Shown piece after piece: positions 34,669 to 39,965 of a stretch of DNA of 64,000 nucleotides. The notes beneath the pieces were generated by a model, which saw only the letters and a list, made by a program, of their open reading frames with translations, was not told the DNA's origin and did no database searches. Source of the stretch: Lactobacillus sp. S2-2 (lineage in GTDB: Bacteria > Bacillota > Bacilli > Lactobacillales > Lactobacillaceae); assembly GCF_021698855.1 (NCBI RefSeq), contig NZ_WWFA01000002.1:1-64000 (forward strand), read 5' to 3'. Position 1 is the stretch's first letter, and each line of letters starts with the position of its first letter. The translations under genes were made by a program, and so were the position numbers.

Positions 34669-37065
34669 ATGAGTCAAAACATTGATTTATTTCAAGATGA
34701 TCAAAATGAAGGAAATCATCAATATATAGTTGGTAAATTAAAAATGATTTTCTTTGAGAGTAATGACAATTTTTATAAAGTTATGTTAGTTACCGTTAGT
34801 GAAAGTTCATTTTCATGGAATGAAGAAGAAATTGTGGTTACTGGTAATTTTGCAGATATTGAAGAAGAAGTCAGTTATAAATTTATTGGATCAGTTGTTG
34901 ATCATCCAAAATATGGTCAACAATTTCAATCGATTAATTATCAAAGAGAAACTCCAACTTCAAAAAAAGGATTTATTAGTTATTTATCAGGAGAAGAATT
35001 CAAAGGAATTGGCGAAAAAACTGCTGAAAAAATATATGATGAGCTTGGTTCTGATGCTATAAACAAGATGTTAGATGATAAGACCATTTTATGTAAAATA
35101 GGTTTAAAACAAAAGCAGATTAGTACAATTAATGATGTAATAAGTAAAAATAATGGTGTTGAACAAACAATTGTTGGATTAAATAGTTATGGATTTAGCA
35201 GCAATATGGCGGGACGAATATTTAAAGAGTATCAAGATAACGCTTTAAAAACAATTCAAGAAAATCCTTATAAATTGGTTGAAGATATTGATGGGATTAG
35301 CTTTAAAAAAGCGGATCAAGTAGCAGTAGAAGTAGGAATTGGTAAACATTCTAGTGGAAGAATTAGAGCAGCTATTCTAACTGGGTTACAACAATTATCG
35401 ACTAGGGATGGTAATACTTATGCAACTTCTGATAACTTAGTTAAAATCACTGAAGATTTGTTGAATTTTAATAATCAAGAACTATCCGGTGAAGAAATTG
35501 GACAGCAATTGATTGAACTAGCTAAAGATGAAAAAATAATTGTTAAAAATAAAAATATTTATTTAAAAAAATTATATGATGCAGAAGTAATAATTGCACA
35601 AAGTATTAAGAGAATTAAAACTGATGATGTAGAAATAAAAGATGACGATTTAAAATTATCAATTAATAAAGTAGGACAAGAATTAAATATTGATTATGAT
35701 GAATCACAACAAGATGCCATTTTTAAAGCGATTAGTAATTCAATGTTTTTATTAACTGGTGGTCCAGGAACTGGTAAAACAACGATAATAAATGGAATTG
35801 TAAAAACATATGCCAAATTAAATAATTTATCTTTAGATATTAATAGTTATAAAGAAAAACCATTTCCAATTCTTTTAGCTGCACCAACGGGAAGAGCAGC
35901 AAAAAGAATGAGTGAATCAACTGGATTACCAGCTTCAACAATTCATCGTTTATTGGGATTAAATCGAAATGATGATGAACCAGTAAATGATTTAGATGGT
36001 GATATTTTAATTATTGATGAAATGTCTATGATAGATACTCCTCTTTTTAAAATGTTGTTAGAATCTATTCCAAGACATATGAAAGTAATTATGGTTGGCG
36101 ATAAAGATCAGTTGCCATCGGTAGGTCCAGGACAAGTTTTTCATGACTTATTAGAATCAGATTTAATTGTTTCAAAAGAATTAGATCAAATACATCGTCA
36201 AGAAGAAACATCGACAATTATTAGATTAGCTCATTCGATAAAAGATGGAAGGTTACCTGATGATTTTTATCAAAATCAACCTGATCGGAGTTTTATTAAA
36301 TGTAATGCTAATCAAATTGAATCAGTAATTAAACAAGTTGTTGCTAGAGCAAAACAAAAAGGATTTAATTCAAGTGATATTCAAATATTAGCACCAATGT
36401 ATCGTGGATCTGCTGGAATTAATAACTTAAACAAAATTGTTCAAGACATTATGAATCCAAAAACTAATGATAAACAAAAAGAAATTGAGTATAATAATAT
36501 TAAATATCGTATTGGTGATAAGGTATTACAACTAGTAAATAGTCCAGAAGATAATGTTTTTAATGGTGATATTGGTAAAATTGTAGGAATTGAATATGGT
36601 AAAAATCAAAAAAAATATGAAGATAAGTTAACAATTGCTTTTGATCAAACAGAAGTTGTATATTCTAGAAAAGATTTTAATAATTTAACTTTAGCTTATT
36701 GTACATCAATTCATAAAGCACAAGGAAGCGAATTTAAATTAGTAATAATGCCAGTTTTGCCACAATATCGAAGAATGTTAAAAAAGAATTTATTGTATAC
36801 TGGAATTACTAGAGCGTCATCAATGTTAATTTTATTAGGAGATCCTAATTCTATTTCTGAAAGTGTTAAGAGTGAATCTGATAATCGGTTAACGACTTTA
36901 AGGCAAAGATTATTTGAAGTATTTGATAAACAACCTTCTGAAGAAAAGATTATTAAAAATGATAATTTAAATAATACAAATGACTACATTTTAACAGAAA
37001 CAAAAATTTTAAATAATGAAATTGATCCTATGATTGGAATGGATAATGTTCGTTTAAATTATTAA
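34669..37065 (+). CDS. recD2: ATP-dependent DNA helicase RecD2
   Basis: 798-residue SF1B 5'-3' helicase of the RecD2 type, which works without RecBC in replication-fork and repair processes. N-terminal OB-like region, helix-hairpin-helix part (about residues 100-220), Walker A GGPGTGKTT (364-372), LIIDEMSMID as motif II and the C-terminal AYCTSIHKAQGSEF motif. Length is typical. Confidence 0.96.
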   Translation: MSQNIDLFQDDQNEGNHQYIVGKLKMIFFESNDNFYKVMLVTVSESSFSWNEEEIVVTGNFADIEEEVSYKFIGSVVDHPKYGQQFQSINYQRETPTSKKGFISYLSGEEFKGIGEKTAEKIYDELGSDAINKMLDDKTILCKIGLKQKQISTINDVISKNNGVEQTIVGLNSYGFSSNMAGRIFKEYQDNALKTIQENPYKLVEDIDGISFKKADQVAVEVGIGKHSSGRIRAAILTGLQQLSTRDGNTYATSDNLVKITEDLLNFNNQELSGEEIGQQLIELAKDEKIIVKNKNIYLKKLYDAEVIIAQSIKRIKTDDVEIKDDDLKLSINKVGQELNIDYDESQQDAIFKAISNSMFLLTGGPGTGKTTIINGIVKTYAKLNNLSLDINSYKEKPFPILLAAPTGRAAKRMSESTGLPASTIHRLLGLNRNDDEPVNDLDGDILIIDEMSMIDTPLFKMLLESIPRHMKVIMVGDKDQLPSVGPGQVFHDLLESDLIVSKELDQIHRQEETSTIIRLAHSIKDGRLPDDFYQNQPDRSFIKCNANQIESVIKQVVARAKQKGFNSSDIQILAPMYRGSAGINNLNKIVQDIMNPKTNDKQKEIEYNNIKYRIGDKVLQLVNSPEDNVFNGDIGKIVGIEYGKNQKKYEDKLTIAFDQTEVVYSRKDFNNLTLAYCTSIHKAQGSEFKLVIMPVLPQYRRMLKKNLLYTGITRASSMLILLGDPNSISESVKSESDNRLTTLRQRLFEVFDKQPSEEKIIKNDNLNNTNDYILTETKILNNEIDPMIGMDNVRLNY

Positions 37066-37085
37066 TATAAGGGAGTTAGCATTCA

Positions 37086-38030
37086 ATGCCAAATCAAAAA
37101 GTAAAATTGTTTTCACTAAGTTCAAATAAAGAATTAGTTGAAAAAATTTCTAATGAATTAAATGTTCCAATTGGTAAATCAACAGTTAAACATTTTAGTG
37201 ATGGAGAAATTCAAATTTCAGTTGATGAAAGTATTCGTGGGGATGATATTTATGTTGTTCAATCATTATCTGATCCAGTTAATACTAATTTGATGGAATT
37301 AATTATTATGGTTGATGCAATTCGTAGAACCAGTGCAGGAACAATTAACGTTGTGATTCCATATTATGGTTATTCAAGATCTGATCGTAAAGCACGTTCT
37401 AGAGAACCAATTATTTCTAAAATGATTGCTTCATTTATCGAAATGCAAAGAGTTGATCGAGTTATTACACTTGATTTACATGCAACACAAATTCAAGGAT
37501 TTTTCAATATTCCAGTGGACCATTTAAAACCAACTAATCTTTTTATTGAATATTTTAAAGATAATGGTTTATTAGATAATACTGTAATCGTTTCTCCAGA
37601 TCATACAACAGTAAACCGAGCTCGATTATTTGCTGATCGTTTGAAATTGCCCATTGCAATTGTTGATAATCGTAATCCTGATGATGAAACTAATATTCCA
37701 GATTCAGTTATCGGGGATGTTAAAGATAAAAATGTTATAATAACAGATGATATGATTGTTACTGGTAAAAAATTAGATATTTCAGCAAAAGCTCTAAAAA
37801 AAGCAGGTGCAAAAAATATTTATGTTAGTGCTACTCATCCTGTTTTCGCAGATGGAGCAATTGAAAGATTAAACAATTCACCAATTAACAAAATTATCGT
37901 TTCTGACTCAATTAATATAAAAACGAATCAAGATACTTCAAAAATTGATGTTGTTTCAGTTGGAAGTTTATTTGGAAAAGCAATTGATTTAATTGAAAAT
38001 AATAAATCAACCGGTAAATTATTTAAATAA
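37086..38030 (+). CDS. Ribose-phosphate pyrophosphokinase, divergent paralogue
   Basis: 314-residue PRPP synthase-family protein, full length. FSDGEIQISV, the flexible ATP loop YGYSRSDRKARSREP and DLHATQIQGFF are well kept. The usual HGGVTRAR is changed to HTTVNRAR (residues 173-180), and the PRPP loop, normally DDxIDTAGT, reads DDMIVTGKK (221-229). The loop Asp-Thr-x-Gly-Thr that grips the ribose-5-phosphate is thus lost. Lactobacilli often carry two prs genes; this looks like the second one and may be regulatory or of altered activity. 20 bp after recD2. Confidence 0.85.
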   Translation: MPNQKVKLFSLSSNKELVEKISNELNVPIGKSTVKHFSDGEIQISVDESIRGDDIYVVQSLSDPVNTNLMELIIMVDAIRRTSAGTINVVIPYYGYSRSDRKARSREPIISKMIASFIEMQRVDRVITLDLHATQIQGFFNIPVDHLKPTNLFIEYFKDNGLLDNTVIVSPDHTTVNRARLFADRLKLPIAIVDNRNPDDETNIPDSVIGDVKDKNVIITDDMIVTGKKLDISAKALKKAGAKNIYVSATHPVFADGAIERLNNSPINKIIVSDSINIKTNQDTSKIDVVSVGSLFGKAIDLIENNKSTGKLFK

Positions 38031-38053: not shown

Positions 38054-39046
38054 ATGTATAAAGCAAGTGATCAAAGATATGATGATATGTTAGTTAGAAG
38101 AGCTGGAAATACAGGATTACAATTACCAGCTATTTCGTTTGGAACTTGGCACAGTTTTGGTGATGATGCTAACTTTAAAGATAGTGAAGAAGTGATGCTT
38201 CACGCTTTTGATAAAGGAATCTTTAGTTTTGATTTAGCTAATAATTATGGGCCTGGATCAGGTGCAGCCGAAAGAATGTTTGGTCAAGTTTATAGACAAG
38301 ATTTAAAACCATATCGTGATGAATTAATTATAACCACTAAGGCAGGATTTCATATGTGGCCAGGTGTATATGGTAACTTTTCTTCTAAAAAGACTTTAGT
38401 AGCTGCTTTAGATAGAAGCTTAGAAAAAATGGGATTGGATTATGTTGATATTTATTATAGTCATCGATTCGATCCAAACACTAATTTAGAAGAAACTGCA
38501 GAAGCACTTGATCAAATTGTTAAATCTGGTAAAGCACTTTATATTGGAATTTCAAATTATGATGGTGAACAAACACGTAAGATGATTGATTTATTTAATG
38601 AAAAGCATACACCTTTTGTTGTCAATCAAAGTTCTTATAATATGTTAAATAGAACTGCTGAAAATGATGGTACAATTGATGAGCTTTCAAATAATGGAAA
38701 TGGATTTGTGCCATATGGACCATTAGCCGAAGGTTTATTAACAAGTAAATACTTAGATGGTATTCCAGATGATATTAAAATTCATCCAACGAACGATGGT
38801 ATTTTCAATGAAGGTAAAGATGTTGTAGTTCAAAGAATTAATCAATTGAATGATATTGCTAATAATAGAAATCAAAGTTTAGCTCAAATGTCTATTTCTT
38901 GGTTATTGAATAATCCAGTAGTGACAAGTATTGTTACTGGAGCTTCAACCGTTGATCATTTAGATAATAATTTAGATGCTTTAAATAATTTAGAATTTTC
39001 ATCAGAAGAATTAAAAATGATTGATGAGATTACTAAAGGTAAATAA
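38054..39046 (+). CDS. Aldo/keto reductase, YghZ (L-glyceraldehyde 3-phosphate reductase) type
   Basis: 330-residue NADPH-dependent AKR. FDLANNYGPGSGAAE holds the catalytic Asp and Tyr, TTKAG the lysine and YYSHR the histidine of the tetrad; GNTGLQLPAISFGTW and the C-terminal SIVTGAS nucleotide motif are present. The substrate is inferred from family likeness only. 23 bp after the PRPP gene, with a terminator after it. Confidence 0.9.
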   Translation: MYKASDQRYDDMLVRRAGNTGLQLPAISFGTWHSFGDDANFKDSEEVMLHAFDKGIFSFDLANNYGPGSGAAERMFGQVYRQDLKPYRDELIITTKAGFHMWPGVYGNFSSKKTLVAALDRSLEKMGLDYVDIYYSHRFDPNTNLEETAEALDQIVKSGKALYIGISNYDGEQTRKMIDLFNEKHTPFVVNQSSYNMLNRTAENDGTIDELSNNGNGFVPYGPLAEGLLTSKYLDGIPDDIKIHPTNDGIFNEGKDVVVQRINQLNDIANNRNQSLAQMSISWLLNNPVVTSIVTGASTVDHLDNNLDALNNLEFSSEELKMIDEITKGK

Positions 39047-39082
39047 AAAAGAAAGAAGTATTTTAATACTTCTTTCTTTTTT
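39045..39082. terminator. Bidirectional terminator aldo/keto reductase / lipid kinase
   Basis: AAAAAAGAAAGAAGTATT pairs with AATACTTCTTTCTTTTTT between convergent genes. Confidence 0.92.
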
Positions 39083-39965
39083 ATTTCGTTAAAGTGTAAT
39101 TAGTAATTGAAATGTTTACGTTGAAATATTCACTCATAAATTTTTCGTTGTCAAATTGACCGTATTCTAAAGAACTTGAAAATAATTTTAATGATTTAGT
39201 ACTAAAATTATTAGTATCATGATGAGCTTTTTTATTTTTACTCCATAATCTAAATAATTTATAAAGTAAATTAAATGAATTCTTTTTTTCTATAATTGTA
39301 AAATCTAACATTTGAGTTTTTTTATTTAATTTGATATATGCATAATATGCATCTTTAAAAACGTAATAAGTTGAATTTAAAGTAGCAGTTAAAGGAAAAC
39401 TATTGTAAGTATATAAAATTTCAAACATAACAAATATTTTTTTTATTTTACTTAGATATTTCTTTTGTTTAGTTGTCTTACTAATGTAAAGAGCGTCCAT
39501 TCCAATACTAAAATTATCAAAAAAATAATGGTATCTATTTTTTACATTATCTAGTGTTTTGCCAATATAAAATGTCTGTTTGGTTGGTTTTTCAAGTATA
39601 TTTTTAATAGCACTACTTGGATTAGTTGGAATATTATAATTATGAGCAAAGTTATTTTTTTTACCAGATGGTATTAATGATAATGGTATTATATAGTCTT
39701 TAGAATGATTTTCATAAAAAAGAGCAATAGAATTCATAACTTCTGTAAAAGTTCCATCGCCACCAATCACAATTAATGACATATTACGGTTATTATAATT
39801 ATTATTTATAAAATAATTTGCAATAATATTTGCTTGGTTTTCATATTTTGTTGTTCTAATGGTGTAATTAATGTTTTTATTATTTAAAGCTTCTTCAACT
39901 TTTAATTTTGCGTCTTTTCCTCGATAAGAAGAAGGATTGTAGATTATGAAATAATTATTTGTCAT
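39081..39965 (-). CDS. Diacylglycerol kinase-family lipid kinase
   Basis: 294-residue DAGK-catalytic-domain protein (DgkB/YegS fold). IYNPSSYRGK start, LIVIGGDGTFTEVMN nucleotide loop (about residues 64-78) and IPLSLIPSGKKNNFAHNY, where the common GTxND motif is altered to SGKKNNF. It may phosphorylate diacylglycerol for lipid recycling; the substrate is not certain. The C-terminal domain is Lys/Asn/Phe-rich. Downstream of rnjA on the same strand but separated by a terminator. Confidence 0.85.
   Translation of the reverse strand: MTNNYFIIYNPSSYRGKDAKLKVEEALNNKNINYTIRTTKYENQANIIANYFINNNYNNRNMSLIVIGGDGTFTEVMNSIALFYENHSKDYIIPLSLIPSGKKNNFAHNYNIPTNPSSAIKNILEKPTKQTFYIGKTLDNVKNRYHYFFDNFSIGMDALYISKTTKQKKYLSKIKKIFVMFEILYTYNSFPLTATLNSTYYVFKDAYYAYIKLNKKTQMLDFTIIEKKNSFNLLYKLFRLWSKNKKAHHDTNNFSTKSLKLFSSSLEYGQFDNEKFMSEYFNVNISITNYTLTK

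Follow-up and report, generated by a model that had tools for sequence, protein, structure and literature searches.

A catalytically degenerate second PRPP synthase in Lactobacillaceae as a candidate inactive partner of the canonical enzyme

The window, a 64,000-nucleotide stretch of a Lactobacillus sp. S2-2 contig (NZ_WWFA01000002.1), carries a paralogue of class I PRPP synthase genes, here called prs2, which lies between recD2 and an aldo/keto reductase gene on the same strand (Table 1). Its frame is open throughout, from ATG to TAA; when the sequence of the entire window was shuffled 20 times, the longest stop-free run reached 186 aa. GC content by codon position is 0.432, 0.321 and 0.095 for the first, second and third positions. 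A promoter/terminator scan returned 45 promoter-like sites against 40.5 expected. Further downstream, at 39081-39965 on the minus strand, lies a divergent homologue of YegS/BmrU-type lipid kinases, which matches ten NCBIfam models far under every cut-off (at best 51 bits against 118.65).

Table 1. Features of the prs2 locus, in window coordinates, with residue equivalents in human numbering
Feature	Position	Strand	Remarks
recD2, upstream neighbour	34669..37065	+	20-nt gap to prs2
AAGGGAG, ribosome-binding-site-like	37069..37075	+	10 nt before prs2 ATG; spotted by eye
prs2, catalytically degenerate class I PRPP synthase paralogue	37086..38030	+	314 aa
FLAG region FSDGE (F35, D37, E39 equivalents)	37194..37208	+	fully kept
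RF (ATP/regulatory) loop YSRSDRKARSREPI	37371..37412	+	R96 equivalent kept, Q97 -> S
SPDHTT, canonical SPDHGG	37593..37610	+	metal/R5P Asp kept; both Gly gone
Catalytic flexible loop DNRNPDDE, canonical DKRRPxxN	37665..37688	+	K194, R196, N200 equivalents gone
R5P/PRPP loop DDMIVTGKK, canonical DDMIDTAGT	37746..37772	+	D224, G227, T228 gone; D220, D221, T225 kept
Aldo/keto reductase gene, downstream neighbour	38054..39046	+	23-nt gap; adjoins 27/71 Lactobacillaceae Prs2 loci

The encoded protein has both the fold and the length of a class I PRPP synthase, and the conserved length that a sequence-only reading had described holds for a full-length homologue of 314 aa. Its best relative in the PDB is the B. 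subtilis PRPP synthase (E 9.9e-95), whilst chains of the eukaryotic PRPP synthase-associated proteins (PRPSAPs) are more distant (E 6.9e-52 at best). An AlphaFold2 single-chain model built from 41 sequences (pLDDT 87.9, pTM 0.87) superposes on 1dkr_B with a TM-score of 0.91 and 48% identity in the structural alignment, with low confidence at residues 99-107, which belong to the RF loop. Prs2 passes the general NCBIfam models; with 419 bits it falls short of the equivalog NF002618, whose cut-off is 460, and with 344 bits it does not reach NF002686 either (cut-off 506).

The protein departs from an active enzyme above all in the ligand motifs. With human residue numbering assigned by motif, the window Prs2 carries K194N, R196N, N200E, D224V, G227K, T228K, G173T, G174T and Q97S, and retains F35, D37, E39, R96, H130, D171, D220, D221 and T225. 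Thus the FLAG residues and the RF-loop arginine of an active enzyme are in place, whereas the Lys/Arg pair of the catalytic loop has become Asn and Asn, and the loop DDxxDTxGT reads DDMIVTGKK. The sequence-only reading had seized upon this altered PRPP loop and on the changed HGG motif (SPDHTTVNRAR), both of which stand in the translation; its conserved ATP loop holds for most of GYSRSDRKARSREPI, the exception being the serine at Q97. The damaged ribose-5-phosphate (R5P)/PRPP site that it proposed is borne out, and extends to the K194/R196 pair, which it had overlooked. The loss of this pair is stronger evidence than the PRPP-loop and HGG changes. In human PRPS1, K194A and R196A each leave activity undetectable, in agreement with K197A/R199A of the B. 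subtilis enzyme (PMC4363470). Considering that these published mutants lie at the same positions, we infer with good support that the window Prs2 would be without normal PRPP synthase activity.

The sequence-only reading also supposed that a true Prs exists elsewhere in the genome. Indeed, in the 1.35 Mb assembly of 14 contigs two genes match the PRPS N-terminal family, prs2 and a canonical copy (G000:C4:17842-18771), so prs2 is not the only prs. This second protein, Prs1, has canonical loops, adjoins glmU and passes equivalog NF002618 with 554 bits (cut-off 460). The same arrangement of one canonical and one divergent copy occurs in 10/10 genomes of the genus, where the divergent copies all read DNRxP in the catalytic loop and VTG[RKDH]K in the PRPP loop. 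To look further afield, we drew on samples of 101 genomes from the family (among the matches listed; 40 re-searched), 70 from the order and 91 from the class, and took part of their Prs loci to give a final set of 274 distinct proteins. Copies were called canonical where K194 and R196 are both present, which leaves only the other columns (G227, T228, G173 and the FLAG residues) as independent tests.

Among the 139 Lactobacillales genomes with Prs loci in this set, 108 pair one canonical with one non-canonical copy and 31 have the canonical copy alone, five of the latter (G062, G076, G080, G092 and G106) having further Prs matches outside the set; two canonical copies were found in none of the 139. 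A canonical Prs1 therefore accompanies the non-canonical copy in 108/108 cases. Counted by genome, a second prs copy is present in 41/70 from the order, where one of these copies is broken, and in 30/40 of the selected Lactobacillaceae, whilst no second prs was found in the remaining 29/70 and 10/40, suggesting that Prs2 is dispensable on evolutionary time scales. The best 80 named loci include 15 non-canonical ones, 11 in Lactobacillales genera and four in other Bacilli. Streptococcus- and Enterococcus-type families (f4 and f3, respectively) were assigned as such by motif match with named loci; family f8 we take to be Listeriaceae, and f12 is presumably Paenibacillus-like. The second copies of class families f12 and f37 are of a different kind, as they keep the catalytic pair.

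Several further Prs proteins stand out. Non-canonical Prs outside the Lactobacillales occur in a Bacilli MAG (L249), Neobacillus kokaensis (L279), Bacillus sp. T33-2 (L285) and Gracilibacillus massiliensis (L296). Two Phycisphaerae MAGs (L289 and L302) have the catalytic Lys/Arg pair together with a D224 to T change (DDMITTAGT and DDMITTGGT). Canonical streptococcal Prs1 proteins (L151, L152 and L201 of f4; L263 and L270) have two extra residues following the catalytic Lys/Arg (KRRSVDKMNT). In genus g29, the sole prs found (L176, L177) is itself unusual, with the loop DTGHT, the insertion KRRPVDKKNT and RES in place of REP; no second full-length prs was found in these two genomes.

Comparing 136 distinct canonical Lactobacillales proteins with the non-canonical ones, 75 from Lactobacillaceae and 33 from other families, separates what has been lost from what has been kept. 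K194 is retained in 17/75 and 4/33 of the non-canonical copies (21/108), R196 in 3/75 and 0/33, and both are gone in 84/108, the window Prs2 included. As for the columns that play no part in the definition, G227 persists in 4/75 and 0/33, G173 in 3/75 and 0/33, and T228 in 3/75 Lactobacillaceae and 25/33 others, amongst them all nine distinct Streptococcus-type (f4) proteins; G227 or T228 is gone in 108/108, and the two are never kept together (0/108). On the other side of the ledger, F35, D37 and E39 are kept in 75/75 Lactobacillaceae and 32/33 others (107/108), the exception being the broken frame of G120. R96 and D221 are kept in all 108, D220 in 74/75 and 33/33, and T225 in 74/75 and 31/33; H130 is also kept among the non-canonical copies. 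Across Lactobacillaceae, 131 columns are at least 95% conserved in Prs1 and 19 of these fall below 50% in Prs2; such lost columns concentrate in the four ligand motifs (11/19, against 17/112 of the others; Fisher p = 1.6e-4). With a smaller sequence set, 17/122 columns were lost in Prs2, and the window Prs2 keeps 89/122. S310 near the C-terminus, which we take to be an allosteric-site residue, is also lost in most Prs2. In three proteins the RF loop is rewritten too, as STKKTEARAPI in L009 (the F. sanfranciscensis-type genome G009) and as HSAKKRERKAI and YSAKKRERKPI in genus g24 (L047 and L049), which takes them still farther from an enzyme.

Could these replacements mark a new specificity, in which Prs2 binds, or transfers diphosphate to, another small molecule? 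The loop replacements are consistent within lineages, as with the VTG[RKDH]K motif throughout the genus and the asparagine at position 194 in 38/75 Lactobacillaceae Prs2, and this counts in favour of the idea. However, the missing Lys/Arg pair acts on ATP and R5P whatever the acceptor, and the PRPP loop takes 50 different sequences among the 108 proteins, a variety that relaxed constraint fits better than one new substrate does. We regard a new specificity as very unlikely. The loop changes picked out in the window differ in their reach: T228 is replaced by a basic residue (K or R) in most Lactobacillaceae copies (64/75), whereas D224V is confined, within the same 75, to the ten proteins of the window genome's own genus, Fructilactobacillus.

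Prs2 is under purifying selection, with dN/dS from 0.030 to 0.305 for same-genus pairs with estimable dS, as the sequence-only reading had expected of a frame kept by selection. In the closest useful pairs Prs2 comes close to Prs1, with 0.033 against 0.024 for G006/G008 and 0.030 against 0.025 for G005/G001; the very close pair G001/G002 gives 0.122 against 0.005, and the window genome and G007 give 0.268 against 0.108, with dS above 1. These values indicate a protein that is constrained but faster-evolving. A decaying duplicate without function could be invoked from the one broken copy and from the absence of a second copy in several lineages. We consider such decay barely credible, since dN/dS is at or below 0.31 in every estimable same-genus comparison, frames are full-length across the family and the proteins form one clade in the tree; in the lineages compared, a pseudogene is contradicted by dN/dS. 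The broken copy itself is the f8 Prs2 at G120:C8:43702-44505 (L140), interrupted by a TGA; seven other distinct f8 second copies have no internal stop.

The history of these copies was traced with a quick tree of thinned sequences, built with the catalytic motif columns removed, and with neither bootstrap nor eukaryotes. All 39 Lactobacillaceae Prs2 rows, the window protein included, fall in one clade (SH-aLRT 98), and the free tree sets the f7, the f8 and the Streptococcus/Enterococcus-type Prs2 clades apart from it. Topology-test groups were named after inspection of the tree, so that the following p-AU values serve only as a guide. A shared origin of all bacterial pseudo-copies is rejected where the tandem copy in G251 (L212) is concerned (0.0002), and weakly for the one in G138 (L131b; 0.04). 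For the remaining 49 Lactobacillales non-canonical rows a single origin is not rejected (0.53), nor does the free tree, with its separate clades, lend it support. In both these genomes a canonical and a non-canonical prs stand in tandem on the same strand (L131 in family f5, L212 in f11), and the tree pairs each tandem copy with its neighbour, so that they look like independent pseudoenzyme births. The L212 copy, which comes from outside the Lactobacillales, appears to have arisen separately, and the L131 copy probably did so too.

The neighbourhood of prs2 bears on both its ancestry and its possible role. recD2 adjoins Prs2 in 39/71 Lactobacillaceae loci and the canonical prs in 0/54, which supports the orthology of the window gene with Lactobacillaceae Prs2. 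Perhaps, then, Prs2 works independently of any Prs1 complex, as a sensor or in some moonlighting role, possibly together with RecD2. We find this improbable, as recD2 went undetected at the other 32/71 Lactobacillaceae loci and at 27/27 non-canonical loci of other families (within flanks of 1.5-2 kb, some of them cut by contig ends), and as the kept FLAG residues and the unfailing presence of Prs1 point instead to assembly with Prs1. A link with purine synthesis was also considered. With a second prs, purF is present/absent in 21/14 Lactobacillaceae genomes and, without one, in 5/5 (45 genomes, p = 0.72); in other families the counts are 30/3 and 17/11 (p = 0.007 over 61 genomes), kinship being left out of account in both comparisons. 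Also taken as purF-positive were three long matches that score below the curated threshold and one purF interrupted by the end of a record. We draw no inference from these counts, which give no association in Lactobacillaceae and, with kinship uncorrected, some elsewhere.

What could a protein with a ruined catalytic loop and an intact FLAG region be doing beside an active Prs1? In the E. coli enzyme, F35 and D37 reach the active site from the neighbouring chain, whereas R5P is bound within the same chain by D170, D220, D221, T225 and T228 (PMC9232217). The ATP pocket is likewise reported to be shared between subunits, E39 of the FLAG region coming from one and R96 of the RF loop from the adjacent one (PMC13252144). 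Prs2 thus keeps the residues that serve a neighbour and loses some of those that serve itself, suggesting the role of a partner; a kept FLAG region has been used for a similar argument in PRPSAPs (PMC12238573). We therefore lean, with rather more confidence than doubt, towards Prs2 as a putative PRPP synthase pseudoenzyme, a non-catalytic subunit that would assemble with Prs1 and tune it, and whose bacterial origin would be separate from that of PRPSAPs. Such a subunit would insert into hexamers or filaments of canonical Prs1 and complete the ATP site of Prs1 from the neighbouring position; it would contribute no turnover of its own, and would change the amount, the assembly or the ADP/Pi response of the active enzyme. 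The losses, retentions, co-occurrence and purifying selection can be read directly in the sequences, and it is from them that we infer inactivity, co-assembly and regulation. At least one species does produce its Prs2: the pneumococcal protein, SP_1095, appears in a mass-spectrometry table of a biofilm study with counts of 0 and 3, the columns being probably planktonic and biofilm (PMC3216281).

The same retained residues can be read in favour of an enzyme. Prs2 might still be a low-activity or differently regulated PRPP synthase held as a back-up isozyme, considering that H130, D220, D221 and T225, along with the FLAG and RF elements, have mostly survived, and that NCBIfam names the streptococcal-type family (NF002686) a ribose-phosphate diphosphokinase. 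Indeed, H130, D220, D221 and T225, with D171 in 68/75 Lactobacillaceae, would allow ligand binding or slow turnover, and the K194 kept in 21/108 and the T228 kept in 25/33 from other families count against inactivity. The main contrary fact comes from S. suis, in which a transposon screen lists prsA1 among the genes needed in pigs, and in which prsA1 insertions, as the same report leads us to suppose, appear viable in vitro (PMC7239030). Their survival would mean either that PRPP is bypassed in that medium or that Prs2 has some activity. The Prs2 of streptococci, in which T228 is retained, may thus have residual activity. On the other hand, the loss of either the Lys or the Arg is by itself reported to abolish detectable activity of human PRPS1, and most non-canonical proteins have lost both; moreover, a non-canonical copy stands alone in 0/139 Lactobacillales genomes with Prs loci in the set. 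On balance we hold a back-up isozyme to be unlikely, and the interpretation put forward by the sequence-only reading, a regulatory partner of the true Prs, to be partly supported.

Should Prs2 be an inactive partner, the implications reach beyond a single genome. PRPP feeds the synthesis of purines, pyrimidines, NAD, histidine and tryptophan, and a mis-annotated regulatory subunit of its synthase would be present in many well-known bacteria: among the best 80 named loci, such copies occur in Fructilactobacillus, Secundilactobacillus, Ligilactobacillus, Lacticaseibacillus, Loigolactobacillus, Leuconostoc, Weissella, Streptococcus and Enterococcus. In UniProt, proteins of this kind presumably go by the name 'putative ribose-phosphate pyrophosphokinase 2'. 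The broader proposition is that PRPP in Lactobacillales is commonly the product of a mixed complex, with an active and a dead subunit, which originated independently of its eukaryotic counterparts and on more than one occasion within Bacilli; here we would place the chances evenly. If it holds, the picture of bacteria with one homomeric PRPP synthase would be wrong for a large and well-studied group, and simple bacterial systems would be at hand in which to ask why evolution repeatedly makes dead PRPP synthase subunits. In the PRPS surveys of 2025-26, inactive partner subunits are discussed as a feature of eukaryotes (PMC12238573, PMC13252144). According to the earlier one (2025), bacteria as a rule express only one PRPS, and it is from Amorphea that PRPSAPs and PRPSAP-like proteins are described (PMC12238573). 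The later one, a 2026 preprint, surveys more than 35,000 PRPS sequences, counts 37 pseudoenzyme events among its eukaryotic sequences and finds the catalytic residues retained across major prokaryotic classes (PMC13252144). Its main text contains none of the terms Lactobacill-, Streptococc-, Bacilli, Firmicutes, Bacillota and lactic, a mention in its supplements being possible. Within the open-licence PMC literature, a bacterial PRPP synthase pseudoenzyme is absent from the titles and abstract openings among the matches listed, and the co-expressed prs1/prs2 of PMC11681623 are listed there as human genes.

Set against known systems, the window Prs2 shares with the B. subtilis enzyme (PDB 1DKR/1DKU/1IBS) its fold, length, FLAG region, H130, D220/D221/T225 and most of the RF loop, whilst its catalytic Lys/Arg, N200, PRPP-loop Gly/Thr and SPDxGG glycines are replaced. 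NCBIfam NF002686 (PRK02458) describes the second Prs of a streptococcal-type genome; our sample contains a member (L121, 610 bits against 506) which, like the window Prs2, is a degenerate second copy, with differing loops (NRN and VTGKK in the window protein, YEQ and NTGKT in the streptococcal type). The closest parallel in kind is with the human PRPSAP1 and PRPSAP2 and the PRPSAP-like pseudoenzymes, as the sequence-only reading had guessed: like them, Prs2 has lost the equivalents of K194, R196 and N200, keeps the FLAG region and coexists with an active PRPS (PMC12238573, PMC13252144). Of the residues lost in PRPSAPs (D171, K194, R196, N200 and T225; PMC12238573), the window protein keeps D171 and T225, unlike PRPSAP2, which has lost both. 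PRPSAPs, moreover, carry a non-homologous insertion in the catalytic loop (PMC12238573), whereas that of the window Prs2 is free of one, and a few Lactobacillaceae relatives (L044, L045, L050 and L056) have four extra residues there. PRPSAPs descend from eukaryotic PRPS1, whilst the window Prs2 is nearest to bacterial enzymes and sits among Lactobacillales in our tree, from which eukaryotes were absent. Without the insertion, and with bacterial descent, it is not a member of the PRPSAP family; by analogy, it may nevertheless work like one.
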